Shown here piece after piece: positions 666-46,578 of a DNA stretch of 54,292 nucleotides. A program made the position numbers and the translations under genes. Source of the DNA: a virus. The stretch lies in IMG/VR virus record IMGVR_UViG_3300032093_000181, positions 1 to 54,292 of that record. One strand, given 5' to 3'. The first letter of the stretch is position 1, and every line of letters starts with the position of its first letter. The notes beneath the pieces were generated by a model that was given only the letters and a program-made list of their open reading frames with translations, had not been told where the DNA came from and searched no databases.

Positions 666-3600
666 ATGGCTGACCTGCAAAGTCTGTACAGAGCCCTCGA
701 AAAAGCCGATGCAGCGGGGGATACGCAGTCAGCTAAGCAATTAGCTGATTACATACGAGGGCTGTCAGGTTCGGTTTCTGCGCCTCCCCCTCCCCCGGAG
801 GGCGGGTTCGTCCCTGCTGTCAAGCGCGGGTTCTACCAGACTGGGGTTCTGCTAGGAGATGTCCTCCCGGCAATGGCGGCACGTGCCGTAGGCGCTGGCG
901 AATACGCGGAGAAGCAGTGGAAAGAAGCCGCCGCTACTCAGCAAAAGATTCAGCGGGAGATGCCCGCTGCGGTTCCTTCGTACACAGACGTTAAGAGTCT
1001 CGGTGACGCCTGGACTTACGCCAAGGAAGCCGTCGGGGAAAGCATTGCTTCCCTTCTACCTGCCATCCTTACGGGTGGACTTGCGGGTGTCGCTGGGCGC
1101 GGTGCGACCATCGCCGCCAAAGAAGCTGCTGAGCGGGTTCTACTGGCTGAAGCCGCAAAGATGGGACCGCCCACTAAGGCGGCAATCGACGCCGCTACTG
1201 CGGCGGGGGTCAAGGCTGCTCAGCGCGAAGCCCTGAAGTATCAGGCGGCGGGTGCGTTTGCGGGGTCTGCAGCGCAGAACATCCCTGAGGTCTACCAGAA
1301 TATTAAGGAAGCAACAGGCAAAGAAGACCTCGGTGCAGCCCTTGCGTTCGGTGGGTTCAATGCAGCGCTGGATGCTGTTATGCCTGTTACTTTACTTGCT
1401 AAAGTACGTAAGGCGGGTATTCCTGAAGAGCAGATCATGGGGGCGTGGTACAAGCGCTTCGCCAAGGGTGCTGGCAAGGGCTTCCTGATTGAAGGTGGGA
1501 CTGAAGCCGCCCAGGAAACTTCATCTGCCGCCGCCGAGAAGTTTGTTGATGAGAATCAGCAGTTCTTCAGCGAGAAGAACTTCAACCGCGTAGTGGATGC
1601 CTTCCTGAAGGGCGGTATCGGTGGAGGGGTTATCACTGGGACTACGGACGTAGCCACTGGGCGCAAAGAAGCGCCGAAGCAATTCCCAGGTATAACTACG
1701 CCTCCTCCCCCCGCTGGCACAACAGTTCAGGAAGAAGAGGAAGAAGCCCCACCCGCTCCCCCGGCACCTGCAGGTGCCCCAGCCCCTGCCCCCGCAACAC
1801 GCTCTGTGTCTCCCGACATGAGCGTGGAAGACTTACTGAAATCGCTGACTGGAGCCAAAGATGCTGGAGAAGCTATCACCCCGCCAAGTGGAGCAGGCGT
1901 TCAAGTGGCTGGCGAGCCCGGTGCAAAACCCGCCGCCGAAGGGGCTGGAACCACTGTCCCAGGTGGAGTGGTTCCTCCTGTCGAGGATGCTGGACAACCT
2001 GCTGGAGGAGAAGGAGCAAAGCCCCCTCCAGTAAGTAAAAGACAAGAAGAGCAAGACCGGTACAACGAACTCTTCACGATAAAGGCGCAGCGCGAACTCA
2101 CCCCCAAAGAGGCGGATGAATATGAGGACCTAGAGCTCACTGCTGCTATAGGTTTCTTGGATGAGCCCAAGCTCATTGAGTTGGGTAAGCCAAGTGCAGT
2201 AACGCCCTCGACACCCTCTGCTGCTGCACCGCCTGCTCCACCCCCACCGAGCCCTCCGTTAAAAGTGGAAGGGGCACCGCCTCCGGTGGTGGGTGGAGCA
2301 CCCGGTCTTAAGGAGAAGATCGGTAAGTTTGATGCGGCGTTCGGTGAAGATGAAGACTTCTTCACGAGAGGCGCTGCTGAACTTACCCCTGCTCAGAAAG
2401 AGCGTGAGAGAGAACTAGAAGCCGAAGGCAAACGCCTTGGCGTTGTGCGCAAAGACGGCGAGACTGCGCGTCAATACTGGGCGCGGGTCAAGCCCGCGAT
2501 GACCCTGGAGTCTGAGATTGCTGCCCCTGAAGTTGGTGGGCTGGCTACGCGGGCTGCTGACGTTGAACCGTCGCTGATTGCTGCGCAGGAGATCAAGCCT
2601 GAGCGACAGGTTGTCATCCCTGAAGAACAGAAGCTGCTGTACGAGGAGACTCGGCAGGCTTTCAATCAGACGACTGAATCAGATCAGGAGAACCTGCCTG
2701 AGTTCGACAAGCTGCGTCCTGAAGAAAAGCGTGTCTACTTCACGGAGCACATAAGAGATAACTCTCAGTTTGAGCACGACGAGGCTGCTCAAGCGCTGTC
2801 AGAGTACTTGCAATCCAAGAACGTGCAGGCCGAGGCTGAAGGCCGTCAGGCAGTGCGCGGAGTCACTGCTGGCCTGACGCCTGAAGAGAAGCAGGCTGAA
2901 GAGGTAAAGGCGAAAACGGAAGAAGCGAGAAAAGAAGCTCGCGCTAAGGCCAAGGAAGAAGTCTCTGCGCGGTACAGATACGAGCGGCAGCGCCCGGTCA
3001 TGGGCCAGAAGACGGGCCTTGCGTATTCCTTCCCGACCTGGGGTTCGCTCTCTGAAGCGTCGAGGAACCTCTTCACGACCATCAACAAGACAGACTCTGC
3101 AAACGAGCAGGACCTAGCGTTTCGCGCTATCCGCAAGCAGATTCAAACGGAGAAGGCAGAGCAGCAGCGGCGCGAAGCCCTGCAATCTGCTGAGTCCCAG
3201 GTCAAGAACGAGATAGTTCGCGCCGCTGAACGCGCTAGGAAAGCTCAGCCTGCCGGTAAGGGAGCGATCCTCCCTGATGAAATTCTCAGCAAGCTGCTGG
3301 CGGGTGATGTCAAAGCGGTGCTTAGGTATCTTGGTGGTGCTCCTGGCGAGGTATCGAAAGGAGAACCGTTTGGCAGATACAAGCCCAGCCAAAAAGAAGG
3401 CGGGGCGAAAGGCATCCTCTCTCGCACTAAAGAAGGAAATTGGTTCTCTCGTCAGGTCTACGAAGCGCTTGCCAATGCACTCCAGCGTATTGACAACTTC
3501 AACGTCAACATCGTGTTCGACGAAAACATGGTGTTCGATGAGATTGGCAAGTACGACGCTGCAACCAACACGATCTACCTGGGGCCGAACGGTCTTGATG

Positions 3601-6600
3601 AAGCTACGCTGCTGCACGAACTGACGCACGCAGCCACAGTCAAGATCATCAATCAGTATTTCTCTGACAAGACGAAGCTCGATGCTCGGTCGATCAAAGC
3701 TGTAGAGCACCTCATCGAGATTGCTGGTGCCGCAAAGAACAAGATTGGAAGCAAGTACCCCAACGCTTTTGAGAACCTCTACGAGTTCATCGCGTATGCA
3801 ATGACGGATGGGCCGTTCCAACAAGAACTCGCCAACATCAGCATCCCTCGGCTGGCTAAGGCCACGGCCAAGACGGGGCAAGCCCCACGTGTACTTCAGA
3901 CTGCACGGGAAGTCGGTGATCTGTACGACTCCATGTTCGATAACCTGTGGGATTACTTCACAGGCACTCTGGCGTATCTGTACCGTCTGTTTACGCCCTC
4001 TGCGAGTACTCAAAAGGTTTATCTGCCCACTGAGAAGTCTCGTGTCACCACGAAGACCGCGCAGCGTTTGCGTGAAGAAGAGCTAAAAGGAAAACTTGCC
4101 GCCCAGAAGAAAAAGGATCTGACGGCGGCGGAAGAGCGCCTTGCTGAAATTGAACTTGAGGAAGGCACTCTTACCCCAGCGGAGCGCAGGGAAGAACGAA
4201 AGCTGAGCGCGGCTGATGTAGAAGCGCTGCAGCCGGAGAAGCTATTTGCACAAGAGGGCGAAGGGATAACCCCCGAGGATGCCGCTGAAGCAAAGATAGC
4301 CCCTGTCAAAGGCGAACTTGTCACGCAACTGGGGATCACCAACCTCCGTCGCAGCATCCTCATTGAGCCTGGGTACAAGGGCAATCTGCTGCTGGAAATC
4401 TCGTCGGCGTTCCAAGACATCCTTGCCGCACCTGAAGGCGGCATCGAGCGGATTGCTGGTAAGGGAAGTATTGGGACAGAACTTCTTTCTAAATCCGCTG
4501 CGTGGGAAGACACTTCTTGGGTGCAAATGCTTGGGAGTGAGTCTGAGACTGGGCTGGCTATGGTGTTGCTGCAAGACTACGACAACGTAAACGCAAAAAT
4601 AGCTGAAACCGAATCAAAAGTTCAAAAAGAAAAAGAAAAAGCTGAAAAGTATCCCGATAAACGCGCAGTGCTGGAGGAACAAGCACAATGGCTCGGGAGA
4701 GATTTGCCTGAGCTTAAGCAAAAATTAGCTGACATTGAGGCACAGTTGACGTCTCTTAGGAGTAGCGCCTATCAGCAGAGAGACGCCGGAACGGAATTGC
4801 CTTCAAGGGGCAAAGCCGGTGTCACCAAGAAGGCACCCCCGAAGCTCGATAGAACCCCCGAAGAAATTCAGAAGGCACTGCCCCTTGCTGGTAAAGCTGA
4901 GCGTCCGACGATTGTGCAGGCGCTCAAGAGCCAAGGCTTCTGGCAGAACGTGGTGCGGAAGTTCCAGAACGCTCAGGAACCGTTGAAACGCGCCCAGGAA
5001 AAGTACGATGCCTTCGGCAAGATCATCTACACGGGCGACAAGATCAACAACGTCTGGTCACAAGCCACGTTGGCTACAGGCCGCGCATGGTGGAACTTCG
5101 TCAACAGGCTTGCTGGCAAGACCAATGATGTCCACAAGGCAATCGAGAACTTTGCCACCGTACACAAGCTGACAGTTGATGAGGCCCTGCAAGTTCTGCA
5201 TGGCTACTCCATCGTCATGCACGAGCCGGAGCGCCGCAAAGTCAAGTACATCAAGACAGTTCCGCTGGAACCAGCAGCAGACGCAGCGCGTAAGAAGATT
5301 CTGGAGAGTCTTGCTCATCCGACAACCAAAGAAGCAGATGCGGTCAAGTACCGTCAGATGCTGGACAAAATCGTCAACGACCCCAACAACCACGCCAAGT
5401 TTGTTGGACCTGCTGGCAAGGCCAAGCCCGTCACTCCGGAGATGGCGGCGAAGCTGTTTGATGAGAAGTCTGAGAAGTACAACGTAGCTGGTAACTACAC
5501 GACCAAAGAGCTTGCTGAGATGCGCAAGTTCTACACGGGCACGACCTCCGAGTTCAATCAGGACATGCTGAAGGATGTCTTTGACAAGCTCAAGGAAGTC
5601 CAGAAAGAAACTATTGAGCTGAACAAAGAGGCTAACTACTGGTCTCAAGGCGTCTCCAACATCGTCGCTTTCAATGGCTGGAAACACTACGTCCCTCTGA
5701 AGGGTCGCCCCGGTGCGCTAGAAGCCGATGAAGACCTCGATCCTCTGAAGTCCCGCAAGATTGGTGGCGAACTGCAAGAAAAAGAACTCGCTTTCGGTGG
5801 CCGGGAGTCTGACTCTGACAACCCCGTGTTGCAGTCTCTTGCTGACGGTGCCCGCGCTGCGATGCGGTTGGGGCGCAAAGACCTGACGCTCTCCATCAAG
5901 AATGCTGTGAACGACGGCATCCTCAAGGGTGATGCAAAGACGGTCATCAAGTTTGAAGAGCGGGCCAACAACCCAGATGCTTTGAAGGCAGCGCAGGGTG
6001 AGAAGGTCATCTTGCACTACGAGCCGAATGGTGACATCCGGGTGGTCAAGCTTCAGAGTAATCTGGAAGCAGAGGCTGTGCGCCGCACGTACCGTGAGGC
6101 AAACCCGTTGCTGGAAAAAGCAAATGCCATTACCAGCGGTATCGGGCAGCTCCACACCCGCTACAGCCTGCCGTTTGCCCCGATGAACTTTGTGCGTGAC
6201 TTGCTTACCAACGCCTACACGCTAGGAGCTGAACTTGGTCCGAAGGCTTCGTACCAACTGATCGCGGAGGTTTCGCGCCAAGTTGCTACAAACGGGGGCC
6301 TGTTCAAGTCTGCAAAGATTGCTTACCTGATGGCGAACAACAGGGTAGGCGAAGCCAAGGCTATGGCGGCGAAAGACCCCTACGTAGCCGACATGCTGGA
6401 GTATCTGGAGAAAGGCGGGCGTGTCTCGTACATCCAGGGTATCGCTGCCAAGGGGCAGATGCAGGAACTGCTGAAAGACGTGGGGCGCAACAACGTCCTG
6501 AAGACCAAGGATCAGGTCGAGAAGGTATTCGACTACTGGACCGATATGTTTGAGTTGGCAAGCCGCACTGCCTCGTATCGTGTCCTGAAGAAGAACATGC

Positions 6601-7958
6601 TGCAAGAGGGTAAGGGCAAGAACCTCTCCGGTGCTGAACTGGAAGACTACGCCTCCAACCGCGCTGCTGAGTACACCAAGAACCTCGCTAACTTTGAGCA
6701 AGTCGGTGAGTGGGGCAAGGCGATGGGCGCAGCCTTCATGTTCTTCCGCCCCGCTGCTACGGGCGCGGTTCGTGCGCTGGATGCTGTGTTGCCTGCTTTC
6801 ACCAACTACACGAATGCACAGAAGAAGGTAACCGCTGATCTGATGAAAGCCCGTGGTGGGGCGATGAAGGCATCAGCAGATGAGATCAACAAGGCAATCG
6901 CGGACGCTTACAAGAAGAGTTCCGATGCACGTGCGATGTCTGCCAGCCTGCTTGGCATGGGGATGGCTGTCTACGTGATGGCACTGATGCTGTCTGACGA
7001 CGATGATCAGGAACGCAATAAGGTTGCGACTGATGACCCCGCACGATGGACACGCAATGCGCGTTTCTTCCTTCCCGGAATGGATAACGCGATTCAAATC
7101 CCGTGGGGTTTCGGACTCGGTTCTTTTGCTGCTACAGGGGCACAGCTTGCTTCTACTATTGGTGGACACACTACGCCAAAGGAAGCGCTGTCTAACATCA
7201 TCAGCATCGGGCTCGACTCCTTCCTACCCCTGCCGTTCTCGCGCATCAGCCCAATCGATGAGCCTGCGGCGTTCTTGATGGATACGGCCACACCGTCAGC
7301 GTTCCGTCCGTTCCTTGAGTTCGTGATGAACAAGGACGGTTTGGGCCGAGAGATTTACAACAACCGGCAGTCTCGTGCCGGGGATGCCTACACGGGCGGG
7401 GACAACATCCCTGAGATGTACAAGCAGGCGGCTCGATTCCTTTTTGATGCCACAAACGGCGGCATCGACTGGAGCCCGAACACCATGTACTTCTTTGCCA
7501 ACAACTACGCTGACGGCATCATGCGTGGTATCTCCGGCGTCTCCGGACTGGCTATGTCGGCCACCGGGTTCAAGGAGTTTGATCCAAAGAGAGACTCGAT
7601 TGTTTTCGAGAGTTTCTTCGGGTCTCCGTCAAACTTTGATGCGCGGCAGTTCTCTAATGTTGAGAACAAGATCAAGGATATTGAGCGTCGGCTGAACACG
7701 CTCAAGAGCAACAACCCTGTGGGGTACTCTGAGTATTTACAAGACAACCCGACTCACAAGTACCTTGTTGACTACTACAACTCGCAGGTCAACGGACAGT
7801 TGCGTGACATCCGCAAGATGATGAACGACATCCGTATCAATCGGGAGTACACCCCGAAAGAACGTGGTGAGATGCTTGATAACTTGAAGCCCATTCAGAA
7901 CTTGGTCAAGCGCAACCTTCTCACCGCGTTTGAACAGATCAGTGAGTTGACACCCTAA
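666..7958 (+). CDS. Giant polyvalent protein with metallopeptidase motif and LPD38-like C-terminus
   Basis: This 2430-residue protein begins at an ATG 3 bases after the upstream stop. Visible parts in order: a helical N-terminus with Gly/Ala-rich stretches that could insert in membranes (about residues 45-75 and 130-165); a Pro/Ala-rich linker (about 340-560); charged helical segments; a zinc peptidase-type HELTH motif at residues 984-988 with a possible third ligand in LYEF (E1040); more coiled coil; and a C-terminal region (about 1830-2120) with FAPMNFVRDLLTN and MFFRPAATG segments resembling the large polyvalent protein domain LPD38. Polyvalent proteins of this type are thought to be packaged and injected with phage DNA, carrying effector enzymes into the host. 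A hydrophobic helix near 2090 precedes an acidic DDDD. The peptidase activity and its target are inference. Confidence 0.75.
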   Translation: MADLQSLYRALEKADAAGDTQSAKQLADYIRGLSGSVSAPPPPPEGGFVPAVKRGFYQTGVLLGDVLPAMAARAVGAGEYAEKQWKEAAATQQKIQREMPAAVPSYTDVKSLGDAWTYAKEAVGESIASLLPAILTGGLAGVAGRGATIAAKEAAERVLLAEAAKMGPPTKAAIDAATAAGVKAAQREALKYQAAGAFAGSAAQNIPEVYQNIKEATGKEDLGAALAFGGFNAALDAVMPVTLLAKVRKAGIPEEQIMGAWYKRFAKGAGKGFLIEGGTEAAQETSSAAAEKFVDENQQFFSEKNFNRVVDAFLKGGIGGGVITGTTDVATGRKEAPKQFPGITTPPPPAGTTVQEEEEEAPPAPPAPAGAPAPAPATRSVSPDMSVEDLLKSLTGAKDAGEAITPPSGAGVQVAGEPGAKPAAEGAGTTVPGGVVPPVEDAGQPAGGEGAKPPPVSKRQEEQDRYNELFTIKAQRELTPKEADEYEDLELTAAIGFLDEPKLIELGKPSAVTPSTPSAAAPPAPPPPSPPLKVEGAPPPVVGGAPGLKEKIGKFDAAFGEDEDFFTRGAAELTPAQKERERELEAEGKRLGVVRKDGETARQYWARVKPAMTLESEIAAPEVGGLATRAADVEPSLIAAQEIKPERQVVIPEEQKLLYEETRQAFNQTTESDQENLPEFDKLRPEEKRVYFTEHIRDNSQFEHDEAAQALSEYLQSKNVQAEAEGRQAVRGVTAGLTPEEKQAEEVKAKTEEARKEARAKAKEEVSARYRYERQRPVMGQKTGLAYSFPTWGSLSEASRNLFTTINKTDSANEQDLAFRAIRKQIQTEKAEQQRREALQSAESQVKNEIVRAAERARKAQPAGKGAILPDEILSKLLAGDVKAVLRYLGGAPGEVSKGEPFGRYKPSQKEGGAKGILSRTKEGNWFSRQVYEALANALQRIDNFNVNIVFDENMVFDEIGKYDAATNTIYLGPNGLDEATLLHELTHAATVKIINQYFSDKTKLDARSIKAVEHLIEIAGAAKNKIGSKYPNAFENLYEFIAYAMTDGPFQQELANISIPRLAKATAKTGQAPRVLQTAREVGDLYDSMFDNLWDYFTGTLAYLYRLFTPSASTQKVYLPTEKSRVTTKTAQRLREEELKGKLAAQKKKDLTAAEERLAEIELEEGTLTPAERREERKLSAADVEALQPEKLFAQEGEGITPEDAAEAKIAPVKGELVTQLGITNLRRSILIEPGYKGNLLLEISSAFQDILAAPEGGIERIAGKGSIGTELLSKSAAWEDTSWVQMLGSESETGLAMVLLQDYDNVNAKIAETESKVQKEKEKAEKYPDKRAVLEEQAQWLGRDLPELKQKLADIEAQLTSLRSSAYQQRDAGTELPSRGKAGVTKKAPPKLDRTPEEIQKALPLAGKAERPTIVQALKSQGFWQNVVRKFQNAQEPLKRAQEKYDAFGKIIYTGDKINNVWSQATLATGRAWWNFVNRLAGKTNDVHKAIENFATVHKLTVDEALQVLHGYSIVMHEPERRKVKYIKTVPLEPAADAARKKILESLAHPTTKEADAVKYRQMLDKIVNDPNNHAKFVGPAGKAKPVTPEMAAKLFDEKSEKYNVAGNYTTKELAEMRKFYTGTTSEFNQDMLKDVFDKLKEVQKETIELNKEANYWSQGVSNIVAFNGWKHYVPLKGRPGALEADEDLDPLKSRKIGGELQEKELAFGGRESDSDNPVLQSLADGARAAMRLGRKDLTLSIKNAVNDGILKGDAKTVIKFEERANNPDALKAAQGEKVILHYEPNGDIRVVKLQSNLEAEAVRRTYREANPLLEKANAITSGIGQLHTRYSLPFAPMNFVRDLLTNAYTLGAELGPKASYQLIAEVSRQVATNGGLFKSAKIAYLMANNRVGEAKAMAAKDPYVADMLEYLEKGGRVSYIQGIAAKGQMQELLKDVGRNNVLKTKDQVEKVFDYWTDMFELASRTASYRVLKKNMLQEGKGKNLSGAELEDYASNRAAEYTKNLANFEQVGEWGKAMGAAFMFFRPAATGAVRALDAVLPAFTNYTNAQKKVTADLMKARGGAMKASADEINKAIADAYKKSSDARAMSASLLGMGMAVYVMALMLSDDDDQERNKVATDDPARWTRNARFFLPGMDNAIQIPWGFGLGSFAATGAQLASTIGGHTTPKEALSNIISIGLDSFLPLPFSRISPIDEPAAFLMDTATPSAFRPFLEFVMNKDGLGREIYNNRQSRAGDAYTGGDNIPEMYKQAARFLFDATNGGIDWSPNTMYFFANNYADGIMRGISGVSGLAMSATGFKEFDPKRDSIVFESFFGSPSNFDARQFSNVENKIKDIERRLNTLKSNNPVGYSEYLQDNPTHKYLVDYYNSQVNGQLRDIRKMMNDIRINREYTPKERGEMLDNLKPIQNLVKRNLLTAFEQISELTP

Positions 7959-33746: not shown

Positions 33747-36185
33747 ATGGCTACCAACATCGACCAAGCCCTCATGCCTTTCGACCCGATGCTCCTCACC
33801 GACGAGCCGGCCATCGAGATTGAAATTGAAGACCCGGAAGGCGTCAAGATAGGAATTGATGGCGTCGAAATCGATTTGATGCCGGAACCCGAGACCGCAG
33901 ATGATTTTGACGCAAACCTTGCGGAGTTCATGGACAAGAGTGAGATGCAGTCTCTTGCCTCAGAACTCGTTGATCTGGTGGACGCGGACATCAACAGTCG
34001 CAAAGACTGGACAGAGATGTTTGTCAAGGGACTGGAAGTCCTTGGCATGAAGTACGAAGAGCGCACCGAGCCTTGGTCTGGTGCTTGTGGCGTGTATTCG
34101 CCTCTCCTAACGGAGGCGGCGATACGGTTCCAGTCAGAAATGATCACGGAGACCTTCCCTGCTCAGGGGCCGGTCAAAACGCAGATCATTGGAGAGTCCA
34201 CCCGGCTAAACGAGGACGCGGCAGAGCGTGTTCGTGATGACATGAACTACATGCTGACCGAGCGGATGGTGGATTACCGCTCAGAGCATGAGCGGATGCT
34301 CTATAGCCTGGGTCTTGCGGGGGCGGCGTTTAAGAAGATCTACCCCAACCCAAGCACGGAACTGCCTGCTGCTCCGTTTGTGCCGGCTGAAGACTTGATC
34401 ATGCCCTATGGGGCAAGTAATGTTTACACCGCCGAGCGTGTCACGCATGTGATGCGTAAAACGGAGAACGAGATCAAGAAGCTGCAGGTCGCAGGGTTCT
34501 ACCGGGAGGTGGATCTGGGTGAGCCGACGCGCATCCTAACCGACGTTGAAAAGAAAAAGGCAGAAGAGCAAGGTTACTCCTTGACGGATGACGACCGGTA
34601 TCAGATCCTAGAGATCCATGTGGACTGGGATATGCCGGGGTACGAAGATGAAGTTCCGCTCCCGTATGTTGTTACGCTGGATCGTGGTACTCAGGAGATT
34701 CTGGCGATCCGCCGTAACTGGGACGAAGCGGACAAAAAGAAGCTCAAGCGACAGCACTTCGTCCAGTACACATATATTCCTGGCTTTGGTGCTTATGGTC
34801 TGGGCTATATCCATCTTATTGGTGGTTATGCTCGCGCTGGTACTTCCATCATCCGTCAGTTGGTGGATGCTGGAACCCTGTCCAACCTGCCCGGTGGTCT
34901 GAAAAGCCGGGGCCTGAGGATTAAGGGGGATGACACGCCCATCGCTCCGGGCGAGTTCCGTGACGTAGATGTGCCAAGCGGGTCGGTCAGGGACAACATC
35001 ATGCCCCTGCCGTACAAGGAGCCGAGCCAAGTTCTGGCTGCATTGCTCCAACAAATTACGGAAGACGGACGCAGGTTGGCTGCTATTGCTGACCTGAAGG
35101 TCTCGGACATGAGTGCCCAGGCTCCTGTGGGCACAACGCTGGCTATCCTTGAGCGCCAACTCAAGACGATGTCTGCTGTTCAGGCGCGTGTACACGCCAG
35201 CCTGCGGATGGAGTTCAAGCTGCTCAAGGAGATCATCCGCGACTTCCTGCCGCCTGACTACTCTTACACGCCTGAAGGCGGGGACCGTGCGGTCAAGCAG
35301 GCCGACTACGACCTTGTTGAGGTGATCCCGGTTAGCGATCCCAACGCAGCCACGATGGCGCAGCGGATCATGCAGTACCAAGCGGCACTGCAGTTGGCTC
35401 AAGGCGCTCCGCAGATCTACGACTTGCCGCAACTGCACCGACAGATGTTGGAAGTATTGGGGATTAAGAACGCAGAGAAGCTGGTGCCGATTGAAGATGA
35501 CCAGAAGCCGCGTGATCCTGTGTCAGAAAACATGAGTTTCCTGACTGGTAAACCCACCAAGGCGTTTATTTATCAGGACCATCAGGCGCATATCGCTACG
35601 CATATGTCGATGCTCCAAGACCCAACCATCATGCAAATGATGGGGCAGACGCCTATGGCGCAGCAGATGCAGGGTGCAATTTTGTCGCACATTGCTGAGC
35701 ACATGGCGTTTGCTTACCGGCAGCAGATCGAAGAGCAGCTTGGTGTTCCGATGACCGCGCCGGATCAGGAGCTTGATGAACAGACTGAAGTTCAGTTGTC
35801 CCGTCTGGTAGCCCAGGCAGCGCAGCAATTGCTGCAGGGCAACATGCAGAAGGCTCAACAGCAGCAAGCCCAGCAGATGGCGCAGAACCCTGAAGTGCAG
35901 ATGAAGCAGGCAGAACTGCAACTGAAGGCGCAAGAGCTTCAGCGCAAGGAAGCTGACAGCCAGCGGGACTTCCAAATCGCGCAGCAAAAGCTGCAGCTTG
36001 AACAAGCTCGACTGGCGCTAGATGCCCAAAAGAACCAAGGTGAAGACCCGAGACTCAAAGCGGCACGAGCACAGCAAGAACTTCAGCACAACGAGCAGAA
36101 GCATCAGCAGAAGATACGTCAGCAAATGCAGTCTGATGCGATGAAAGCCCGTCAGCAAATGCTGCGTCAACAACCTAAACAGTAA
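33747..36185 (+). CDS. Portal protein
   Basis: An 812-residue protein directly after terL. A helical N-terminus with acidic stretches leads to WSGACGVYSPLLTEAAIRFQ and ETFPAQGPVKTQI, segments typical of the podovirus/P22-like portal core. An EEAADKKKLKRQHFVQYTYI type beta region and GLGYIHLIGG follow. The last 150 residues are a very Gln-rich coiled coil (QQQAQQMAQNPEVQ), as in barrel-forming portals. The dodecameric portal would be the DNA channel and the tail attachment site. It is longer than most siphovirus portals, which supports a short-tailed particle. Confidence 0.88.
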   Translation: MATNIDQALMPFDPMLLTDEPAIEIEIEDPEGVKIGIDGVEIDLMPEPETADDFDANLAEFMDKSEMQSLASELVDLVDADINSRKDWTEMFVKGLEVLGMKYEERTEPWSGACGVYSPLLTEAAIRFQSEMITETFPAQGPVKTQIIGESTRLNEDAAERVRDDMNYMLTERMVDYRSEHERMLYSLGLAGAAFKKIYPNPSTELPAAPFVPAEDLIMPYGASNVYTAERVTHVMRKTENEIKKLQVAGFYREVDLGEPTRILTDVEKKKAEEQGYSLTDDDRYQILEIHVDWDMPGYEDEVPLPYVVTLDRGTQEILAIRRNWDEADKKKLKRQHFVQYTYIPGFGAYGLGYIHLIGGYARAGTSIIRQLVDAGTLSNLPGGLKSRGLRIKGDDTPIAPGEFRDVDVPSGSVRDNIMPLPYKEPSQVLAALLQQITEDGRRLAAIADLKVSDMSAQAPVGTTLAILERQLKTMSAVQARVHASLRMEFKLLKEIIRDFLPPDYSYTPEGGDRAVKQADYDLVEVIPVSDPNAATMAQRIMQYQAALQLAQGAPQIYDLPQLHRQMLEVLGIKNAEKLVPIEDDQKPRDPVSENMSFLTGKPTKAFIYQDHQAHIATHMSMLQDPTIMQMMGQTPMAQQMQGAILSHIAEHMAFAYRQQIEEQLGVPMTAPDQELDEQTEVQLSRLVAQAAQQLLQGNMQKAQQQQAQQMAQNPEVQMKQAELQLKAQELQRKEADSQRDFQIAQQKLQLEQARLALDAQKNQGEDPRLKAARAQQELQHNEQKHQQKIRQQMQSDAMKARQQMLRQQPKQ

Positions 36186-36790: not shown

Positions 36791-37735
36791 ATGGCAAATG
36801 TACAGAACGACGAATTCAAGTTCCCTGACGAGACTCCTGTAGCCACCTCTGAAGAGAAGGTGGAGTATGAAGTTGAATCAGGGCCTGAGATTGAGGTTGT
36901 AGACGACACGCCCACAGCGGACAAGGGCCGCAAGCCCATGAAGGAGGCCCCGGCAGAGGTCACCGACGACGAGCTTGAGCAGTATTCCGAAGGCGTTAAG
37001 AAGCGCATCCAGCATTTCTCTAAGGGTTATCACGAGGAGCGCAGGGCCAAGGAAGCGGCTTTCCGGGAGCGCGAAGAGGCACTGCGCCTTGCTCAAGCGC
37101 TGGTTGAAGAGAACAAAAAGCTTCAAGGTAGCCTGGGTCAGGGCCAACAAGTATTGCTTGAGCAAGCCAAGAAGGTTGTTGCCAACGAGGTAGAGCAGGC
37201 CAAGCAGAAGTACAAGCAGGCATATGAATCAGGAGATTCGGACGCCCTTGTTTCTGCGCAAGAAGAGTTAACGTCAGCAAAAATACGTGCTGAACGGGTA
37301 AACAATTTCAAGCCGCAAGTTGCACAGTCTCAAGAAACTGTGATACAACCCGCTCCACGACCTGTTGAACAACCGGTACAAGTCGATACCAGAGCCCGTG
37401 CGTGGCAAGATGCCAATCCGTGGTTTGGGTCAGACGACGAAATGACCGCAGTTGCTTTGACAGTTCACAAAAAACTTGTTGAAAGCGGGGTGGATACAGC
37501 CAGCGATGAGTACTACGAGAAGATTAACTCTCGTGTACGGCAAATTTTCCCAGATGCGTTCTCCTCGGGAAAGACAGCAAAAAAGTCGTCAGTTGTAGCA
37601 CCAGCAACACGCAGCACAGCGCCCAGAAAGATCGTGCTGACACAATCACAAGTCAATATCGCCAAGCGTCTTGGGGTTCCTTTGGAAGCCTATGCGCGTC
37701 AGGTTGCGGAAGATATGAGGAAACAAAATGGCTGA
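36791..37735 (+). CDS. Capsid scaffolding protein
   Basis: A 314-residue protein with an acidic N-terminus, long coiled coil (EERRAKEAAFREREEALRLA to about residue 175), a Pro/Gln linker, and a basic C-terminal helix (KIVLTQSQVNIAKRLGVPLEAYARQ). The acidic, helical composition with a basic tail that binds capsid protein is typical of phage scaffolds. It lies between portal and major capsid genes. It probably templates prohead assembly and leaves before DNA enters. Confidence 0.82.
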   Translation: MANVQNDEFKFPDETPVATSEEKVEYEVESGPEIEVVDDTPTADKGRKPMKEAPAEVTDDELEQYSEGVKKRIQHFSKGYHEERRAKEAAFREREEALRLAQALVEENKKLQGSLGQGQQVLLEQAKKVVANEVEQAKQKYKQAYESGDSDALVSAQEELTSAKIRAERVNNFKPQVAQSQETVIQPAPRPVEQPVQVDTRARAWQDANPWFGSDDEMTAVALTVHKKLVESGVDTASDEYYEKINSRVRQIFPDAFSSGKTAKKSSVVAPATRSTAPRKIVLTQSQVNIAKRLGVPLEAYARQVAEDMRKQNG

Positions 37736-39061: not shown

Positions 39062-39970
39062 ATGGCAATTTCACGCGCCCAACTACTCAAGGAACTGCTC
39101 CCTGGTCTGAACGCTCTGTTCGGTATGGAGTACAAGCGCTACGGCGAAGAGCACAAGGAAATCTACGAGACCGAGTCCTCAGAGCGCTCGTTCGAAGAAG
39201 AAACCAAGCTCTCCGGCTTCAGCGCTGCTCCGGTGAAGAACGAAGGTCAAGCAATTTCCTACGACAACGCGCAGGAAGCCTGGACCGCTCGTTACAACCA
39301 CGAGACCATCGCTATGGGTTTCTCCGTCACCGAAGAGGCGATGGAAGACAACCTGTACGACAGTCTGTCGGCCCGCTACACGAAGGCCCTGGCTCGCGCT
39401 ATGGCTTACACGAAGCAGGTCAAAGCTGCTGCCATCCTGAACAACGGTTTCAACAGCGCTGTTACCTACGGCGACGGACAAGCCCTGTTCTCGACCGCTC
39501 ACCCGCTGGTCTCTGGTGGCACCAACAGCAACCGCCCGACGACCGCCGCCGACCTGAACGAGACTTCCCTGGAAGCCGCCGTCATTCAGATCGCTGGTTG
39601 GACGGATGAGCGTGGTCTGCTGATCGCTGCTAAGCCGCGTAAGCTGGTTGTTCCCCCGGCCCTGATGTTCACGGCAACCCGCCTGCTGGAAACCAGCCTG
39701 CGTGTGGGCACCGCCGACAACGACATCAACGCACTGAAGAACAACGGTTCTATCCCTGAGGGATATACCGTTAACCACTTCTTGACCGACACCAATGCGT
39801 GGTTCCTGACCACGGATGTGCCCAACGGTCTGAAGCACTTCGTGCGCGTGCCTATGGCTACGTCAATGGATGCCGACTTCGACACGGGCAACGCTCGTTA
39901 CAAGGCACGAGAGCGGTATTCGTTCGGAGTGAGCGACCCGTTGGGCATCTACGGGTCTCCCGGAGCCTAA
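39062..39970 (+). CDS. Major capsid protein
   Basis: A 302-residue protein with AAGGAG at the ideal distance. The N-terminal helix (ISRAQLLKELLPGLNALFG), the FSAAPVKNEGQAI/ETIAMGFSVTEEAMEDN region, the long spine-like helix SARYTKALARAMAYTKQVKAAAILNNGF and the C-terminal ARERYSFGVSDPLGIYGSPGA match HK97-fold major capsid proteins of the Mu-like/aquatic phage group. It would form most of the icosahedral shell. A strong terminator follows. Confidence 0.9.
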   Translation: MAISRAQLLKELLPGLNALFGMEYKRYGEEHKEIYETESSERSFEEETKLSGFSAAPVKNEGQAISYDNAQEAWTARYNHETIAMGFSVTEEAMEDNLYDSLSARYTKALARAMAYTKQVKAAAILNNGFNSAVTYGDGQALFSTAHPLVSGGTNSNRPTTAADLNETSLEAAVIQIAGWTDERGLLIAAKPRKLVVPPALMFTATRLLETSLRVGTADNDINALKNNGSIPEGYTVNHFLTDTNAWFLTTDVPNGLKHFVRVPMATSMDADFDTGNARYKARERYSFGVSDPLGIYGSPGA

Positions 39971-40059: not shown

Positions 40060-40092
40060 AAGGTCTAGGCTTTGTACCGTAAGGAGCGGACC

Positions 40093-40932
40093 TTGACACA
40101 GGTAATCTACAAGATCGTTAATTTGGTCAACGACAAGTTTTACGTTGGAAGCACGATCCACAAGAAGGTTCGATTTCGTCAACATCGAAAATTGTTGCGC
40201 GGTAATCGGCACCACTGCAAACACCTTCAGGCGGCGTGGAATAAGTATGGAGAGGAGAAGTTTGACTTCCGTGTGGTTGAAGAAGTTCCTGACGCTGTGT
40301 CTTTGCAAGGAGTAGAAGATCGTTGGCTTAAAGAGCATGTTGGGCAAACATACTGCTACAACACTGGGCACTCTTCTGCAGCACCGTGGCGAAACGCGCC
40401 CGCGTATAAAACACCAAACTTTGGTAAAACGGTTTCTGAAGAACAGCGACAACAAATCTCCCAGACGTTAAAAGACTTCTACGCTCAGGACTACTTTAAT
40501 CATCCTCGTGTTGGCAAGCAGCACACAGAAGAAACCAAAGCCAAAATTAGTGTAGCCAAGATGGCAAATCCTGTCGCTCCTTGGGAAGGCCGGCAGCGTA
40601 GCGAAGAAACCAAAGCCAAAATTGGCGACACCCAACGCGGCAAGCCCAAAGGCCCAGGCCGGAAAGTTTCAGAAGAAGGTCGCGCCAAGATCCGCGCAAA
40701 CATTGAAGCAGGGCGCAGTCATATGCACTGGCTTGGCAGAACTCACACAGAAGAAGCCAAGGAGAAGATGCGCAAGAAAGTTTTGGAGCAAACCTCTGGG
40801 CAAATTTTTGACAGCTTGACTGCTGTGCTGACGCACTACCAAATGACAATGCCCACACTGCGCCGCGCTCTGCTCTCTGGTAAACCAATTGGCAAGGGCA
40901 AATTTACTGGGCTGGTGTTTGTTTACGCTTGA
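40093..40932 (+). CDS. GIY-YIG homing endonuclease with repeated DNA-binding motifs
   Basis: A 279-residue protein from TTG 40093, chosen because AAGGAG lies 6 bases upstream. Residues 1-80 are a GIY-YIG-type nuclease: VIYKIVNLVNDKFYVGST (the GIY/YIG strands), RFRQHRKLL with the catalytic Arg, and a Glu in the EDRW segment. The central part has three NUMOD3-like repeats (HTEETKAKIS, RSEETKAKIG, SEEGRAKI) and a further HTEEAKEKM, which bind DNA. The C-terminus resembles a helix-turn-helix (YQMTMPTLRRALLSG). It is a selfish free-standing endonuclease inserted between capsid and downstream virion genes. Confidence 0.9.
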   Translation: MTQVIYKIVNLVNDKFYVGSTIHKKVRFRQHRKLLRGNRHHCKHLQAAWNKYGEEKFDFRVVEEVPDAVSLQGVEDRWLKEHVGQTYCYNTGHSSAAPWRNAPAYKTPNFGKTVSEEQRQQISQTLKDFYAQDYFNHPRVGKQHTEETKAKISVAKMANPVAPWEGRQRSEETKAKIGDTQRGKPKGPGRKVSEEGRAKIRANIEAGRSHMHWLGRTHTEEAKEKMRKKVLEQTSGQIFDSLTAVLTHYQMTMPTLRRALLSGKPIGKGKFTGLVFVYA

Positions 40933-41941: not shown

Positions 41942-42196
41942 ATGGAAGCGACGGTATTGTGGAACCTCGTCCTGACTGTCCTTTTGGGCGCAGTGGCATT
42001 CTTCATGTCATCCAAGTTCAAGGAGCTTGATAGATTGTCTATCCTGCTCAACCGCACACGGGAAGAGATTGCCCGAGATCACATCACGCGGTCTGAATTT
42101 CGGGCGGACATGAAAGAGTTGTTAGAGCGCTTTGACAGGATAGAGGCCAAACTGGATACTCTGCGGAGTAAACAAAGTGCCGGTCAAGTCGGATAA
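41942..42196 (+). CDS. Single-span membrane protein with coiled coil (84 aa)
   Basis: Residues about 5-25 are a membrane span (LWNLVLTVLLGAVAFFM), followed by a charged coiled coil (KFKELDRLSILLNRTREE, MKELLERFDRIEAKLDTL). The arrangement resembles inner-membrane lysis or spanin-like proteins, or phage membrane-anchored coiled-coil proteins. It overlaps the next gene by 20 bases. Because no holin or endolysin is otherwise recognised here, a lysis role is worth considering, but it lies among virion genes. Confidence 0.55.
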   Translation: MEATVLWNLVLTVLLGAVAFFMSSKFKELDRLSILLNRTREEIARDHITRSEFRADMKELLERFDRIEAKLDTLRSKQSAGQVG

Positions 42197-42560
42197 ACAA
42201 CGTCGGTTCATGTATGCGTCTCTCGCTGGCAAGACGGATGTCCCGCCGAGCGTAGCGAAGAAGTTTGTCGGGCCTAAAGCCCATGCCGAAGGAGGCGAAA
42301 TTATGCGTTCTACTGGAATTGGCGGACCAACCGCCCAAGAGATGCAGGCGTATCACGCCTCACGTAAACCCAAGGATAAGCCCCCTGCTGGCATCCGCGC
42401 TGAGTTGGATGCCATGAAGCAGGAAAAGGCAAATGAGGCTGGTATGAAAGCTCATGAGGGCCGCAAGCTTGCCAAGGGGGGTTCTTGCTACGTCTCCGGC
42501 GGTTCTGTTAAGGGTGCAGGCTGCGCCCAACGTGGCGTAAGAAAGTGCAAGGTGGTGTGA
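42177..42560 (+). CDS. Hypothetical basic protein with GCAxRG tail motif (127 aa)
   Basis: A 127-residue protein with a GTG start overlapping the previous gene by 20 bases. The N-terminal PVKSDKQRRFMYASLAGK is a common start of small phage proteins. The protein is basic, with a Lys-rich middle and a C-terminal GGSVKGAGCAQRGVRKCKVV. That tail matches the GxGCAxRGxxKG motif found in three other small proteins in the next 4 kb. Role unknown; virion-associated by position. Confidence 0.6.
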   Translation: MPVKSDKQRRFMYASLAGKTDVPPSVAKKFVGPKAHAEGGEIMRSTGIGGPTAQEMQAYHASRKPKDKPPAGIRAELDAMKQEKANEAGMKAHEGRKLAKGGSCYVSGGSVKGAGCAQRGVRKCKVV

Positions 42561-42561
42561 C

Positions 42562-43119
42562 ATGAAGAAGCGTAAATTCCGCTACGACGAAGGTGGCGAA
42601 GTCAATTACGGCGAGGACGAGCGTCCCGCAGCCACGGGCATGTCTGAGGCAGCGGAGTTGATGCCGGAAAAGCCCAAGCCCAAGCCTGCTCCGAAGCCTA
42701 AACCCAAAGCTGCTTCTCCCTCTCCAAGCCCCTCTCCTAGCCCCGCGCCATCTCCTTCGCCCCAACGTGTTGAAGTAACGGGTAAGCGTCTTCCTAAAGA
42801 CGACGAATCCAAGTCTGTTTCTGAGCGCATGAAAGCTGCGCGGGAGCGGGCAAGGGCTGGTGGCACCAGCACTGACGACCGTTCTGTCACTGAACGTATG
42901 GGTGGCTCTGAGCGCAAGAGTTCTTCCGGCTCTACGGATACCCGCTCTATTTCTGACCGCATGAAGGCCATGCGCGAGAGCGCGAGGTCTAGCAGCACCG
43001 GCACCGATACTCGCTCGGTTGGTGAGCGCATTCGTGGGGCTCTGGGCTTCGCCAAAGGCGGCGTAACCCGCGCTGATGGCTGCGCTAAGAAGGGCCACAC
43101 CAAGGGGAAGATGCGGTGA
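42562..43119 (+). CDS. Repetitive low-complexity protein with GCAxKG tail motif (185 aa)
   Basis: A 185-residue protein. The first 25 residues are mixed, then PKPKPAPKPKPKA and SPSPSPSPSPAPSPSP low-complexity segments, then four imperfect repeats built on S(V/I)(S/T)ERM/DRM (SVSERMKAARERA, SVTERM, SISDRMKAMRESA, SVGERIRG). It ends with FAKGGVTRADGCAKKGHTKG. It is probably unstructured. The end motif and genomic place suggest a virion protein. The HNH gene starts within its last codons. Confidence 0.6.
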   Translation: MKKRKFRYDEGGEVNYGEDERPAATGMSEAAELMPEKPKPKPAPKPKPKAASPSPSPSPSPAPSPSPQRVEVTGKRLPKDDESKSVSERMKAARERARAGGTSTDDRSVTERMGGSERKSSSGSTDTRSISDRMKAMRESARSSSTGTDTRSVGERIRGALGFAKGGVTRADGCAKKGHTKGKMR

Positions 43120-43604
43120 GCGGTAAGGCCGTTCCTTTGGAAACACGTTTTTGGCCTAAAGTTGCCAAAGGCGATGATAGTGTTTGCTGGGAGTGGCAAG
43201 GCGCACGCATAAGTAAAGGGTATGGCTGGGTAAAAACACCTATTGGTAACCGCACAGCGTCCCGTGTAGCTGCGTATTTATCTGGTGTACTTGACAGTCT
43301 GTCAAGCCCGCTGTGTGTTTTGCATCGTTGCGATAACCCGCCGTGTTGCAATCCTGCGCATTTGTTTACTGGCACCAACGTAGATAATGTTGCTGACAGG
43401 GTTGCAAAAGGCAGAAGTGGAAGTAAAGCGCTTCATGGGCAATCAAACGGCGCATCTAAGTTGACCGATATCCAGGTAAAACAAGTGCGTGGCATGTATA
43501 AGTTTGCACAGTACAGTCAATCGCAACTTGCTAGGATGTTTAATGTGCACCAACCGCACATTAGTCGAATTGTTAACGGGCTTAGGTGTGGAGGTGTGCT
43601 TTGA
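43116..43604 (+). CDS. HNH homing endonuclease
   Basis: A 162-residue protein whose GTG start overlaps the previous stop (GTGA). It has an N-terminal CWEWQGARISKGYGWVK segment, LCVLHRCDNPPCCNPAHLF (the HNH core with paired zinc-type cysteines) and a C-terminal helix-turn-helix (YSQSQLARMFNVHQPHISRIV). This is the usual layout of free-standing phage HNH endonucleases. It lies exactly between two small virion genes and is AT-richer than they are, so it looks like a mobile insertion. Confidence 0.88.
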   Translation: MSGKAVPLETRFWPKVAKGDDSVCWEWQGARISKGYGWVKTPIGNRTASRVAAYLSGVLDSLSSPLCVLHRCDNPPCCNPAHLFTGTNVDNVADRVAKGRSGSKALHGQSNGASKLTDIQVKQVRGMYKFAQYSQSQLARMFNVHQPHISRIVNGLRCGGVL

Positions 43605-43843
43605 GAAGTAGCCGTGGCATGGGTGCCGTAAACCCCAAGAAGCTACCCAAAGCAGTGATGCGGAAAGACGCTAATGTCCCAACCGAACTCTATGCAGAGG
43701 GTGGCCCCACGGGGCTTTACGCCAACATCCATGCCAAGCGCAAACGCATTGCCGCAGGATCGGGTGAAACAATGCGCAAGCCGGGTACTTCCGGCGCTCC
43801 TACTGCCAAAGCGTTCAAACGCTCCGCAATGACGGCGAAGTAA
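43601..43843 (+). CDS. Hypothetical basic protein (80 aa) after the HNH gene
   Basis: I start it at TTG 43601, since GGAGG lies 6 bases upstream and it overlaps the HNH stop; ATG 43619 is the alternative. The protein has RSSRGMGAVNPKKLP, an ELYAEGGPTGLYANIHAKRKRIAAGSGE segment and GAPTAKAFKRSAMTAK. It is basic, Gly-rich and probably unstructured. I recall similar GLYANIHAKRKRI proteins beside tail adaptors of aquatic phages. The function is unknown. Confidence 0.6.
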   Translation: MRSSRGMGAVNPKKLPKAVMRKDANVPTELYAEGGPTGLYANIHAKRKRIAAGSGETMRKPGTSGAPTAKAFKRSAMTAK

Positions 43844-43844
43844 T

Positions 43845-44540
43845 ATGGCAACCTCTGGAACCACCACGTTTGACCTTGACCTCAACGAATACGTTGAGGA
43901 AGCCTTTGAGCGCTGTGGTGCAGAGCTTCGCACGGGCTATGACCTGAAGACCGCACGGCGGTCAATGAACCTGCTGTTTGCAGACTGGGCCAACCGGGGC
44001 ATCAATCTCTGGACGGTTGAGCAGGGGTCTATCCCGCTCGTGCAAGGCACAGCTACGTACAACCTGCCAAGTGACACGGTAGACCTCATTGAGCATGTGA
44101 TTCGCACGGGGGCGGGCAACGTCAGCACCCAGGTCGATCTGACCATCACACGCATTTCCGTTTCCACCTACTCCAGCATTCCCAACAAGCTGCAGCAAGC
44201 CCGTCCGATTCAGGTCTGGATCAACCGCCAAGCCCCCACGCCGACTGTGACGGTATGGCCTGTGCCGGATCAGACGAACAACTATCAGTTCATCTACTGG
44301 AGACTGCGCCGCATTCAAGACGCTGGCGCCGGGGGTACGTACACGCAGGATGTCCCGTTCCGCTTCATCCCCTGCTTGGTGGCAGGGTTGGCGTACTACC
44401 TGTCAATGAAGATCCCTGGCGCGATGGAGCGCATGCAGGTGTTGAAACAGCAGTATGACGAGGCTTGGGATCTCGCATCGACGGAAGACCGTGAAAAGGC
44501 AGCGGTGCGGTTCGTGCCGCGCCAGATGTTCATAAGCTGA
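43845..44540 (+). CDS. Tail adaptor / head-tail connector protein I
   Basis: A 231-residue protein. Helical N-terminus (EEAFERCGAELRTGYDLKTARRS), ADWANRGINLWT, a beta part with TYNLPSDTVDLIEHVI, TVWPVPDQTNNYQFIYWRLRRI, and a C-terminal helix (LKQQYDEAWDLA). This pattern matches T7-like tail tubular protein A/adaptor families that bind the portal. It would form the ring between portal and tail nozzle. The second adaptor-like protein is at 45928-46578. Confidence 0.75.
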   Translation: MATSGTTTFDLDLNEYVEEAFERCGAELRTGYDLKTARRSMNLLFADWANRGINLWTVEQGSIPLVQGTATYNLPSDTVDLIEHVIRTGAGNVSTQVDLTITRISVSTYSSIPNKLQQARPIQVWINRQAPTPTVTVWPVPDQTNNYQFIYWRLRRIQDAGAGGTYTQDVPFRFIPCLVAGLAYYLSMKIPGAMERMQVLKQQYDEAWDLASTEDREKAAVRFVPRQMFIS

Positions 44541-44548
44541 GGTTTACG

Positions 44549-45118
44549 ATGCCTGCTCCCTACCGCGACAAAAACATCCTTGAAATGAGTGACCGTGAGC
44601 GGGAAGCTCGGCGGGTTGAAGCGCTTATGCGGCCTGGGCGGGATGCGGTTGAAGGCGTATACCCAGAAGAGTTTTTGGTTCCCGCAGCACGAGCCGCAAG
44701 CAAAGCGGTACAAACAGCACTTCAACGGACTCCAAAAGTTGCCCCAAAAGTGGCGATGCCTGGAGAAGTAAAGCCAAACGTACCAGCGCGTCCGTACTGG
44801 ATGAGTAGGAATAATTTATCTGAAAACTACAACCCAAAGAACTATACCCCGGCCAAAATGGAGAAGATTAGAGAGGATCTGGCTCGAAAGGCAAAGCTGT
44901 CTGAGCAAGAAAAAAGACTAGAGCGGATGCGCGAATACGACCAAGAAATGGATGTGTTTGATGCAAAGAAAGCGTTGTTAGACAGGTCGATGCTGTCTGC
45001 GGGAGTTAATGCTTCGCAAAACGAACAAGAATACAAGCGCGGGGGCTCGGTCAAGGTAAAGTCTCATCGTGGTGACGGCATCGCGCAGCGCGGCAAGACC
45101 AAGGGTCGGATGATCTGA
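44549..45118 (+). CDS. Hypothetical protein with GIAQRG tail motif (189 aa)
   Basis: A 189-residue protein, mostly charged helix (NILEMSDREREARRVEALM; RKAKLSEQEKRLERMREYD), with a Pro-rich middle. It ends with the tail motif GDGIAQRGKTKGRMI. GAGG lies close to the ATG. A role as minor virion or assembly protein is inferred from its position between adaptor genes and from the shared tail motif. Confidence 0.58.
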   Translation: MPAPYRDKNILEMSDREREARRVEALMRPGRDAVEGVYPEEFLVPAARAASKAVQTALQRTPKVAPKVAMPGEVKPNVPARPYWMSRNNLSENYNPKNYTPAKMEKIREDLARKAKLSEQEKRLERMREYDQEMDVFDAKKALLDRSMLSAGVNASQNEQEYKRGGSVKVKSHRGDGIAQRGKTKGRMI

Positions 45119-45119
45119 C

Positions 45120-45551
45120 ATGGCAAATAGGTTTGCCAATGGGGCTAAAAGTTTTGGCTTCTGCGACCTGTGTGGGTTCCGTTTCGACCTGAAGAAGCTC
45201 AAGAACCTGACGGTCAAGACCAAGCAGACGCAGACCAAAGCCTGCCCCCAGTGCTGGACACCGGATCAGCCGCAGTTGCAGCTTGGCATGTATCCAATCT
45301 CAGACCCGCAGGCCATAAGAGATCCTCGTCCGGATACAAATACTTGGTATCAGTCCGGCACAAACGGTTTGCAGACCAACCCAGTATCTGGAACTGGCCC
45401 TGACCAAGAGGGTTATCCAGGTGAGGGCAGCAGAGTGATTGAGTGGGGCTGGAACCCCGTGGGTGGAGCCAGAAGTTTCGACGTTGGGCTGACCCCCAAT
45501 GCCTTGGCCCCAATAGGATATGTTGGTACAGTAACGGTCGTAACGACCTAA
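45120..45551 (+). CDS. Zinc-ribbon virion-region protein (143 aa)
   Basis: A 143-residue protein. Two CxxC pairs (FCDLCGFRF and ACPQCW) in the first 45 residues form a zinc ribbon, then Pro/Gly/Asn-rich loops (YQSGTNGLQTNPVSGTGP) and a beta end (PIGYVGTVTV). It starts one base after the previous stop. I recall similar proteins in aquatic phage head-tail regions. Function unknown; a small structural connector is possible. Confidence 0.6.
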   Translation: MANRFANGAKSFGFCDLCGFRFDLKKLKNLTVKTKQTQTKACPQCWTPDQPQLQLGMYPISDPQAIRDPRPDTNTWYQSGTNGLQTNPVSGTGPDQEGYPGEGSRVIEWGWNPVGGARSFDVGLTPNALAPIGYVGTVTVVTT

Positions 45552-45560
45552 GGAGCAGAC

Positions 45561-45728
45561 ATGGAAAAAATGCGCGACATCGCCAAACAAGAAGTTGGTA
45601 AGCACGTTGCAGCCATGCACAAAGGCAAAGGTTTCTACAAAGGTGGCAAGACCGACGCGGACATGCTAAAGATGGGCCGTGGTCTTGCTAAGGTTCAGAA
45701 CCAGAAGACTGGGATGAAGAAGCCATGA
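45561..45728 (+). CDS. Small basic protein (55 aa)
   Basis: A 55-codon frame with AAGGAG 5 bases before the ATG. The protein is basic (KQEVGKHVAAMHKGKGFYKGG) and ends KTGMKKP. It overlaps the next gene as ATGA. The GFYKGGKTDADMLKMGRG segment is familiar from small genes in aquatic phages. Its ribosome binding site and coupling give good support. The function is unknown. Confidence 0.65.
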   Translation: MEKMRDIAKQEVGKHVAAMHKGKGFYKGGKTDADMLKMGRGLAKVQNQKTGMKKP

Positions 45729-45919
45729 TGAAGACCAAGAAACTTGCTCCGGCCAAGCCGGGTCAGCCCCAAGCCATTGAATCTTTGAGGGATGAAAGTT
45801 GCATGGTGATTGGCAATATTGCCGCCAATCCTGCTCCGGGCATCAAAACTTCAGGTATCCGCACCCGTGGTAATGGCTGTGCGACCAAGGGCACGATGGC
45901 CCGTGGGCCGATGGCGTGA
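45725..45919 (+). CDS. Small basic protein with GCATKG tail motif (64 aa)
   Basis: A 64-residue protein joined to the previous gene by an ATGA overlap. It has a Lys/Pro-rich start and a TRGNGCATKGTMARGPMA end that belongs to the GxGCAxKGxxxG motif set. No domain is recognised. It lies just before the second adaptor gene. Confidence 0.6.
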   Translation: MMKTKKLAPAKPGQPQAIESLRDESCMVIGNIAANPAPGIKTSGIRTRGNGCATKGTMARGPMA

Positions 45920-45927
45920 GGTAACCC

Positions 45928-46578
45928 GTGGATTACGCTGCCCTCAAACAAAATGTAGAGGATTACACCGAGAACACTTTCTCGGCAACTGACTTCGCCA
46001 CGATGACGAAGTTGGCTGAGCAGCGTATCTACAACGCCGTCCAGCTTCCAGCACTTCGGAAGAATGTCACAGGCACGTTGACTCAGGGTAATGCCTACCT
46101 TTCTGCGCCGACAGATTTCTTGTCTGTCTTCAGCCTTGCAGTGATTGATGGGTCTGGAAACTACGAGTATCTGCTGAACAAGGATGTGAACTTCATCCGC
46201 TCAGCGTTTCCAAACCCGTCATCGCAGGGTACGCCCAAGTATTACGCGCTCTTTGGCCCGGATAGCAGCAATCCTGATGAGTTGACGCTAATCCTTGGCC
46301 CGACGCCCTCTGCTGCACTGACGGCAGAACTGCACTACTTCTACTACCCAGAGAGCATCGTGACTGCCACCAATACGTGGCTGAGCGACAACTTTGACTC
46401 TGTGCTGTTTAACGCAGTGATGGTGGAAGCAGCCCGGTTCATGAAGCAAGAGCAGGACATTGTGGCCGAGATGGATAAGCAGTTTGTCCAGTCCCTGACA
46501 TTGCTGAAGAATCTTGGTGATGGCAAGAACCGCCAGGACGCCTACCGCAGTGGGCAGGTTAGAACTCAGGTTATTTAA
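45928..46578 (+). CDS. Tail adaptor / head-tail connector protein II
   Basis: A 216-residue protein with a GTG start preceded by GAGG. It has a helical N-terminus (FATMTKLAEQRIYNAVQLPALRK), a beta middle with NAYLSAPTDFLSVFSLAVID, a KYYALFGPDSSNPDELTLIL segment, and a C-terminal helix with MVEAARFMKQEQDIVAEMD. Composition and pattern resemble phage adaptor proteins of the same superfamily as the 43845 gene. It probably adds to the connector or nozzle of a short tail. Confidence 0.7.
   Translation: MDYAALKQNVEDYTENTFSATDFATMTKLAEQRIYNAVQLPALRKNVTGTLTQGNAYLSAPTDFLSVFSLAVIDGSGNYEYLLNKDVNFIRSAFPNPSSQGTPKYYALFGPDSSNPDELTLILGPTPSAALTAELHYFYYPESIVTATNTWLSDNFDSVLFNAVMVEAARFMKQEQDIVAEMDKQFVQSLTLLKNLGDGKNRQDAYRSGQVRTQVI

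Follow-up and report, generated by a model that had tools for sequence, protein, structure and literature searches.

Encapsulin cargo-loading peptides are short, C-terminal and characterized by small residues, are carried behind a flexible linker by unrelated proteins, and serve an HK97-fold shell, whose inner face they bind. The capsid-targeting sequence of the internal proteins of phage T4 is N-terminal and is removed by the prohead protease. The virion RNA polymerase of phage N4 has a C-terminal region that is required for encapsidation (cited in PMC5512222).

Here we describe a C-terminal tag of phage proteins that would resemble the encapsulin peptides most closely in its working and the T4 sequence in its purpose, and that, judged by sequence and position, appears to belong to neither system. 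As with encapsulin cargo, the tag closes several dissimilar proteins, but it differs in sequence and length, and the shell would be a DNA-packaging phage head. Encapsulin cargo consists of folded enzymes encoded next to the shell gene in a cell genome, whereas the carriers of the tag are disordered basic proteins, putatively docking to the shell, whose genes lie in a phage terminase/portal/adaptor cassette. The T4 sequence has the same would-be purpose of bringing small, mutually unrelated proteins into a phage head; it is N-terminal and protease-cleaved, in contrast to the C-terminal phage tag. In N4, the C-terminal part of a phage protein is likewise needed for entry into the virion, but that region comprises about 1,400 residues of one giant protein, and the tag is 16 residues common to many.

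The proteins encoded by four genes of one phage ended in variants of a single 16-17 residue peptide. The window, that is, the whole stretch of DNA that we analysed, is a linear virus record from IMG/VR, 54,292 bases long. A first-pass annotation had reported four open reading frames with a common tail on otherwise unrelated proteins. All four were confirmed, on the + strand, and comparison of the bodies without their last 24 residues left no convincing similarity. The genes and their tails (classes are defined below) are:

42177..42560, + strand: tagged protein 1, 127 aa, pI 10.0, with a KQRRFM N-terminal domain (phrog_16759-like) and the most divergent tail
42510..42557, + strand: tail KGAGCAQRGVRKCKVV of tagged protein 1, class A, divergent, without T-K-G
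42562..43119, + strand: tagged protein 2, 185 aa, pI 10.2, with a low-complexity body
43069..43116, + strand: tail RADGCAKKGHTKGKMR of tagged protein 2, class A, R-A-D-G variant (Ala replaces the first Gly)
44549..45118, + strand: tagged protein 3, 189 aa, pI 9.9, flanked by adaptor 1 and the zinc-ribbon-like gene
45068..45115, + strand: tail RGDGIAQRGKTKGRMI of tagged protein 3, class A, near consensus
45725..45919, + strand: tagged protein 4, 64 aa, class B family, immediately 5' of adaptor 2, with a low-confidence AlphaFold2 model
45866..45916, + strand: tail RGNGCATKGTMARGPMA of tagged protein 4, class B, the second class, longer by one residue

The end of the core was 7, 7, 7 and 8 residues from the stop in the four tails. 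The strict core pattern at a spacing of 7 or 8 matched three of the four and was found in none of 60 windows simulated with third-order Markov composition. Family and PDB searches with tagged protein 3 gave no match.

The tag had at least three forms that share a core and a register. Class A, with a 7-residue tail, reads R-G-D-G-C-A-x-[KR]-G-x-T-K-G-x-[MF]-x, and class B, with an 8-residue tail, R-G-x-G-A-A-T-K-G-x-M-A-R-G-P-M-A. Class C, collected with its own separate pattern, reads R-G-x-G-A-A-x-[KR]-G-x-K-F-x-G-V-x (also seen as RGxGAAxRGxKFxGVx); among the matches listed, the stop was exactly four residues past the Phe in 130 of 132, and its core therefore shares the class A register. Gly-15, Gly-13, Ala-11 and Gly-8 were nearly or fully invariant, and charged positions were partly exchangeable. 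The Cys of class A was present in about 88% of tails; Ala stands in its place in classes B and C. The net charge of the tail was about +3 to +5, and the linker ahead of it was flexible and rich in Lys and Gly, often with KKGG. In a minority (about 13 distinct cases, mostly the R-A-D-G variant), 14-22 extra residues, often Gly-rich, followed the tag. Such Gly-rich extensions on R-A-D-G variants (L111, L237, L238, L246, L316 and others) had ends such as MCGGGMYKKGK or GGKAYC, which may represent another C-terminal motif.

The tagged genes lie in a head-neck cassette. Its order is terL, portal, a GroES-like gene, a scaffold-like gene, two small genes, the major capsid protein (MCP), small genes including one for a DUF6321 protein, and adaptor 1, followed by a gene for a zinc-ribbon-like protein, the class B gene and adaptor 2. 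As in phages with an SU10-type head-neck cassette, the window has SU10_adaptor-family proteins beside the head genes. Phages of that type have a short tail that lengthens on attachment. The structural genes of interest are:

33747..36185, + strand: portal protein, candidate docking partner, 812 aa, phrog_1216, pI 4.9
36791-37735: scaffold-like gene, pI 5.3
39062..39970, + strand: major capsid protein, candidate docking partner, PF25209, phrog_371, pI 5.2
43845..44540, + strand: adaptor 1, candidate docking partner, SU10_adaptor family (PF24175, E 3.3e-11)
45928..46578, + strand: adaptor 2, candidate docking partner, SU10_adaptor family (PF24175, E 1.2e-20)

The portal, scaffold, MCP and adaptors of the window had pI values of 4.6-5.5, versus 9.9-10.3 for the tagged proteins.

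Several neighbouring genes encode other small modules or look like nucleases. The DUF6321 protein (PF19846; 41686-41931) has 81 aa and a pI of 10.9. DUF6321 also matches the C-terminal end of the larger PHROG families phrog_3477, 727, 30733, 28131 and 10346, and so may be a further shared C-terminal module. The gene at 43586-43843 contains, at 43712-43840, the 43-aa module GLYANIHAKRKRIAAGSGE (GLYANIH; phrog_16028), which we found in 125 phage records, T7-like cyanophages and pelagiphages among them, near head genes where inspected. The annotation of a GLYANIH-module gene of S-B28 as a ribonucleotide reductase concerns a 49-aa ORF, and we take it to be an error. Both modules are, like the tag, small and basic and occur in many phages in the same cassette, but they span about 45-80 residues, and the tag is a peptide in its own right, which DUF6321 can carry as an addition. 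An ORF at 43116-43604 has a putative HNH-endonuclease-like look; its GTG start overlaps the stop of the tagged gene at 42562-43119, and it is possibly an insertion right behind the tag. Between the MCP gene and the small genes, a 286-aa ORF (40072-40932) has by eye a putative GIY-YIG-nuclease-like N-terminus (VIYKIVNLVNDKFYVGST).

The tag is widespread among phages with this cassette. We pooled 328 loci (2.8 Mb), 80 of them through similarity to adaptor 2 and most others through degenerate DNA patterns. These patterns held no stop codon, so the C-terminal placement of the tag was not selected for. The core G-x-G-[CIAVLMS]-A-x-[KR]-G occurred in at least 523 copies in the 328 listed loci, tag and locus numbers from pattern scans of viral collections being lower bounds. 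Among the matches listed, it was exactly 7 or 8 residues from the stop in 503 of 523 (302 at 7, 201 at 8). The listed loci held at least 407 distinct carriers that fell into 117 body clusters, and two carriers within one listed locus belonged to different clusters in 191 of 200 pairs and to the same cluster in 9 of 200. The possibility raised at the outset against a docking role, that the tail is not conserved in other phages, is excluded. Loci found through the adaptor were not chosen by motif, and at least one tag was present in 48 of the 53 that had both adaptors.

The tag is restricted to one cassette. A recognisable piece of it was present in 232 of 235 listed class A loci, the remaining three being shorter than 2.2 kb, and at least one cassette profile matched in all 120 listed class C loci. 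With a single exception among 196 mapped cases, class A carriers lay upstream of adaptor 2; class B carriers (short proteins, mostly 45-108 aa) were encoded directly 5' of adaptor 2, and class C carriers chiefly adjoined the portal or preceded adaptor 1. When 84,980 species genomes were scanned with one strict pattern, which divergent copies would escape, the only match lay in an uncultured bin.

Selection acts on the peptide. The codons of the invariant residues were mixed in the class A tails (n=245 listed), and third-base identity at shared four-fold residues was 0.48 within and 0.37 between contigs. Synonymous sites have thus been free to vary, and the tails are not recent copies; nor are they an element conserved as DNA or RNA.

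The tag is a module that is gained or lost on one and the same protein, as sequence comparisons of DUF6321 loci and of one pair of near twins indicate. DUF6321 proteins usually end in ...RAWNC; in L186 (and L107), L226 and L248 this end is followed by a linker and by a tag that is complete or nearly so. Relatives of the 42177 protein had a divergent tail or lacked a tag; one of them, in L279, differs from its near twin in L287 by a long extension that closes in a canonical tag. Two loci (L115 and L194) had one internal and one terminal copy within a single ORF, as if two tagged genes had fused.

The carrier proteins are basic and apparently disordered. Class A bodies had a median pI of 9.9 and 20% order-promoting residues, versus 30-36% in core virion proteins; the median pI of class C bodies was also 9.9. 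AlphaFold2 models of two carriers had mean pLDDT values of 55.4 and 54.5, with low confidence throughout the class B protein and only modest-confidence helices near the N-terminus of the 42177 protein. Scanning 96 carriers with Pfam, PHROGs and NCBIfam revealed no common profile: each family matched one or two members, in the body and outside the tag where the match was located, with DUF6321 found once and a few other single matches such as phrog_16759. The N-terminal end of PHROGs that bear the label virion structural protein is matched by the phrog_16759 domain as well. A search of solved structures for relatives of tagged proteins found none, and in PMC the motif strings had no relevant use in any paper found. 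The tag thus appears to be described by no family model, solved structure or paper that these searches found. The N-terminal parts of carriers in six loci (L039, L140, L150, L240, L249 and L280) shared FxxxFxxAxxxxxxxFxFxGKxYxx, and the bodies therefore seem partly assembled from recurring pieces. The number and identity of carriers differed widely from genome to genome.

The tag occurs in cultured phages. A tblastn search of the phage collection with short tail peptides, for which the method is too weak, matched only the Pag-Yong1 group: Planktothrix phage Pag-Yong1 (UMO75986.1, 308 aa, ending in GRDGCAKRGRTKGRFI), with the same match in MinM2 and Pra-JY27. A longer query gave one true match, Pelagibacter phage HTVC023P, in which two proteins carry class C tags: gp32 (245 aa), encoded after the portal, and gp51 (127 aa), encoded before adaptor 1. 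In the stretches of HTVC027P and CRP-901 that we examined, the cassette was present and no tag was detected, indicating that the tag is unnecessary for such a virion type and that the tagged proteins look accessory. A literature search for virion proteomics of these isolates found none.

We compared the form of the tag with the phylogeny of head genes. Changes of form numbered 4 on the MCP tree, 3 on the adaptor 1 tree and 3 on the portal tree, against shuffle minima of 14, 13 and 18, with the reservation that these were quick trees and that the pattern-based collection of loci may sharpen the contrast. This tracking fits co-evolution with a structural partner and also fits plain vertical descent.

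Our preferred reading, which we put close to even probability, is that the tag is a C-terminal docking peptide that brings accessory basic proteins to the assembling head or neck, for loading into the virion. The C-terminal register, the dissimilar carriers in one cassette, the synonymous divergence, the gain and loss of tags, the contrast of basic carriers with acidic structural proteins, and the tracking of the MCP, adaptor and portal trees all point this way. Small, basic, largely disordered accessory proteins would end in a flexible linker followed by R-G-x-G-[CA]-A-x-[KR]-G and 7-8 further residues, for which there are at least three sub-forms (xTKGxM-, xMARGPMA and xKFxGVx). The invariant small residues (Gly -13, Ala -11, Gly -8) would lodge in a groove of an acidic structural protein of the head or neck, for which the portal, an adaptor or the inner capsid are candidates. 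The docked tail would keep the carriers at the assembling particle, so that they would be packaged along with the DNA and might also leave with it at ejection. The first-pass annotation had likewise proposed a docking peptide. A C-terminal peptide on dissimilar carriers, beside head and neck genes and in many phages, has strong support; packaging is what we infer, so the idea is partly supported. We count against the docking reading that no tag was detected beside the cassette of HTVC027P and CRP-901, in the stretches examined, and that the likeliest injected protein of the window, a 2430-aa protein (666-7958), has no tag at its end. The LPD38 domain (PF18857) of this protein is one found in phage polyvalent proteins, which are presumed to be injected. 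A tag on large injected proteins was considered and rejected, as this protein and that at 114-662 both lack one.

A transient role in assembly would call for the same docking tail: the carriers would be scaffold-like helpers or chaperones of portal and adaptor that leave before maturation. Binding to coat by a terminal segment is common among scaffolding proteins, and disordered bodies encoded beside portal and adaptor genes would suit such helpers. However, a scaffold-like gene (36791-37735) is part of the cassette as it stands, and its product is acidic (pI 5.3) and not basic like the carriers, and the highly variable number and identity of carriers are unlike those of an essential helper; we regard this explanation as unlikely. 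The charge of the tails and the basic bodies would also suit a basic, Gly-rich tail that binds phage DNA or RNA for condensation or packaging, with no protein partner. Such charge-driven contact needs no fixed distance from the C-terminus, and it is the charged positions that are partly exchangeable, whereas the Gly and Ala positions are nearly invariant, so we rank nucleic-acid binding lower again.

Short C-terminal signals are also read by cellular proteases, and the Cys common in class A would be compatible with a signal for a cellular process, for instance one that marks the protein for degradation or one on which a protease or modifying enzyme acts. But the tag is tied to one head-neck cassette, classes B and C have Ala instead of Cys, and the ends GRMV, GPMA and KGVF are unlike ssrA-type tails, which makes a cellular signal improbable. 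The least probable explanation is that the tails are functionless leftovers of recently copied genes. Small genes with alike 3' ends do neighbour each other, and L115 and L194 carry two copies in one ORF, but the low third-base identity, while residues stay the same, disfavours recent duplication as the source of the tails, as does the rarity of within-locus pairs from one body cluster.

The docking reading can be extended to a broader claim, possible but held more tentatively: that a large group of aquatic phages, HTVC023P-type pelagiphages included, encodes a C-terminal address tag, in at least three sub-forms, by which small basic proteins, an open-ended assortment that changes fast, are loaded into the virion. 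If so, a DNA-packaging HK97-fold head would have a natural code for cargo loading, and the tag would offer a natural peptide with which to direct proteins into phage heads. Most small proteins in the cassettes of tagged phages have no family match, and a 16-residue sequence that flags virion accessory or effector proteins in widespread aquatic phages would be useful there, since the genome would then offer a way to tell what these phages bring into cells. Even without a role in loading, the tag is plainly a peptide kept for its function while the proteins ahead of it change past recognition.
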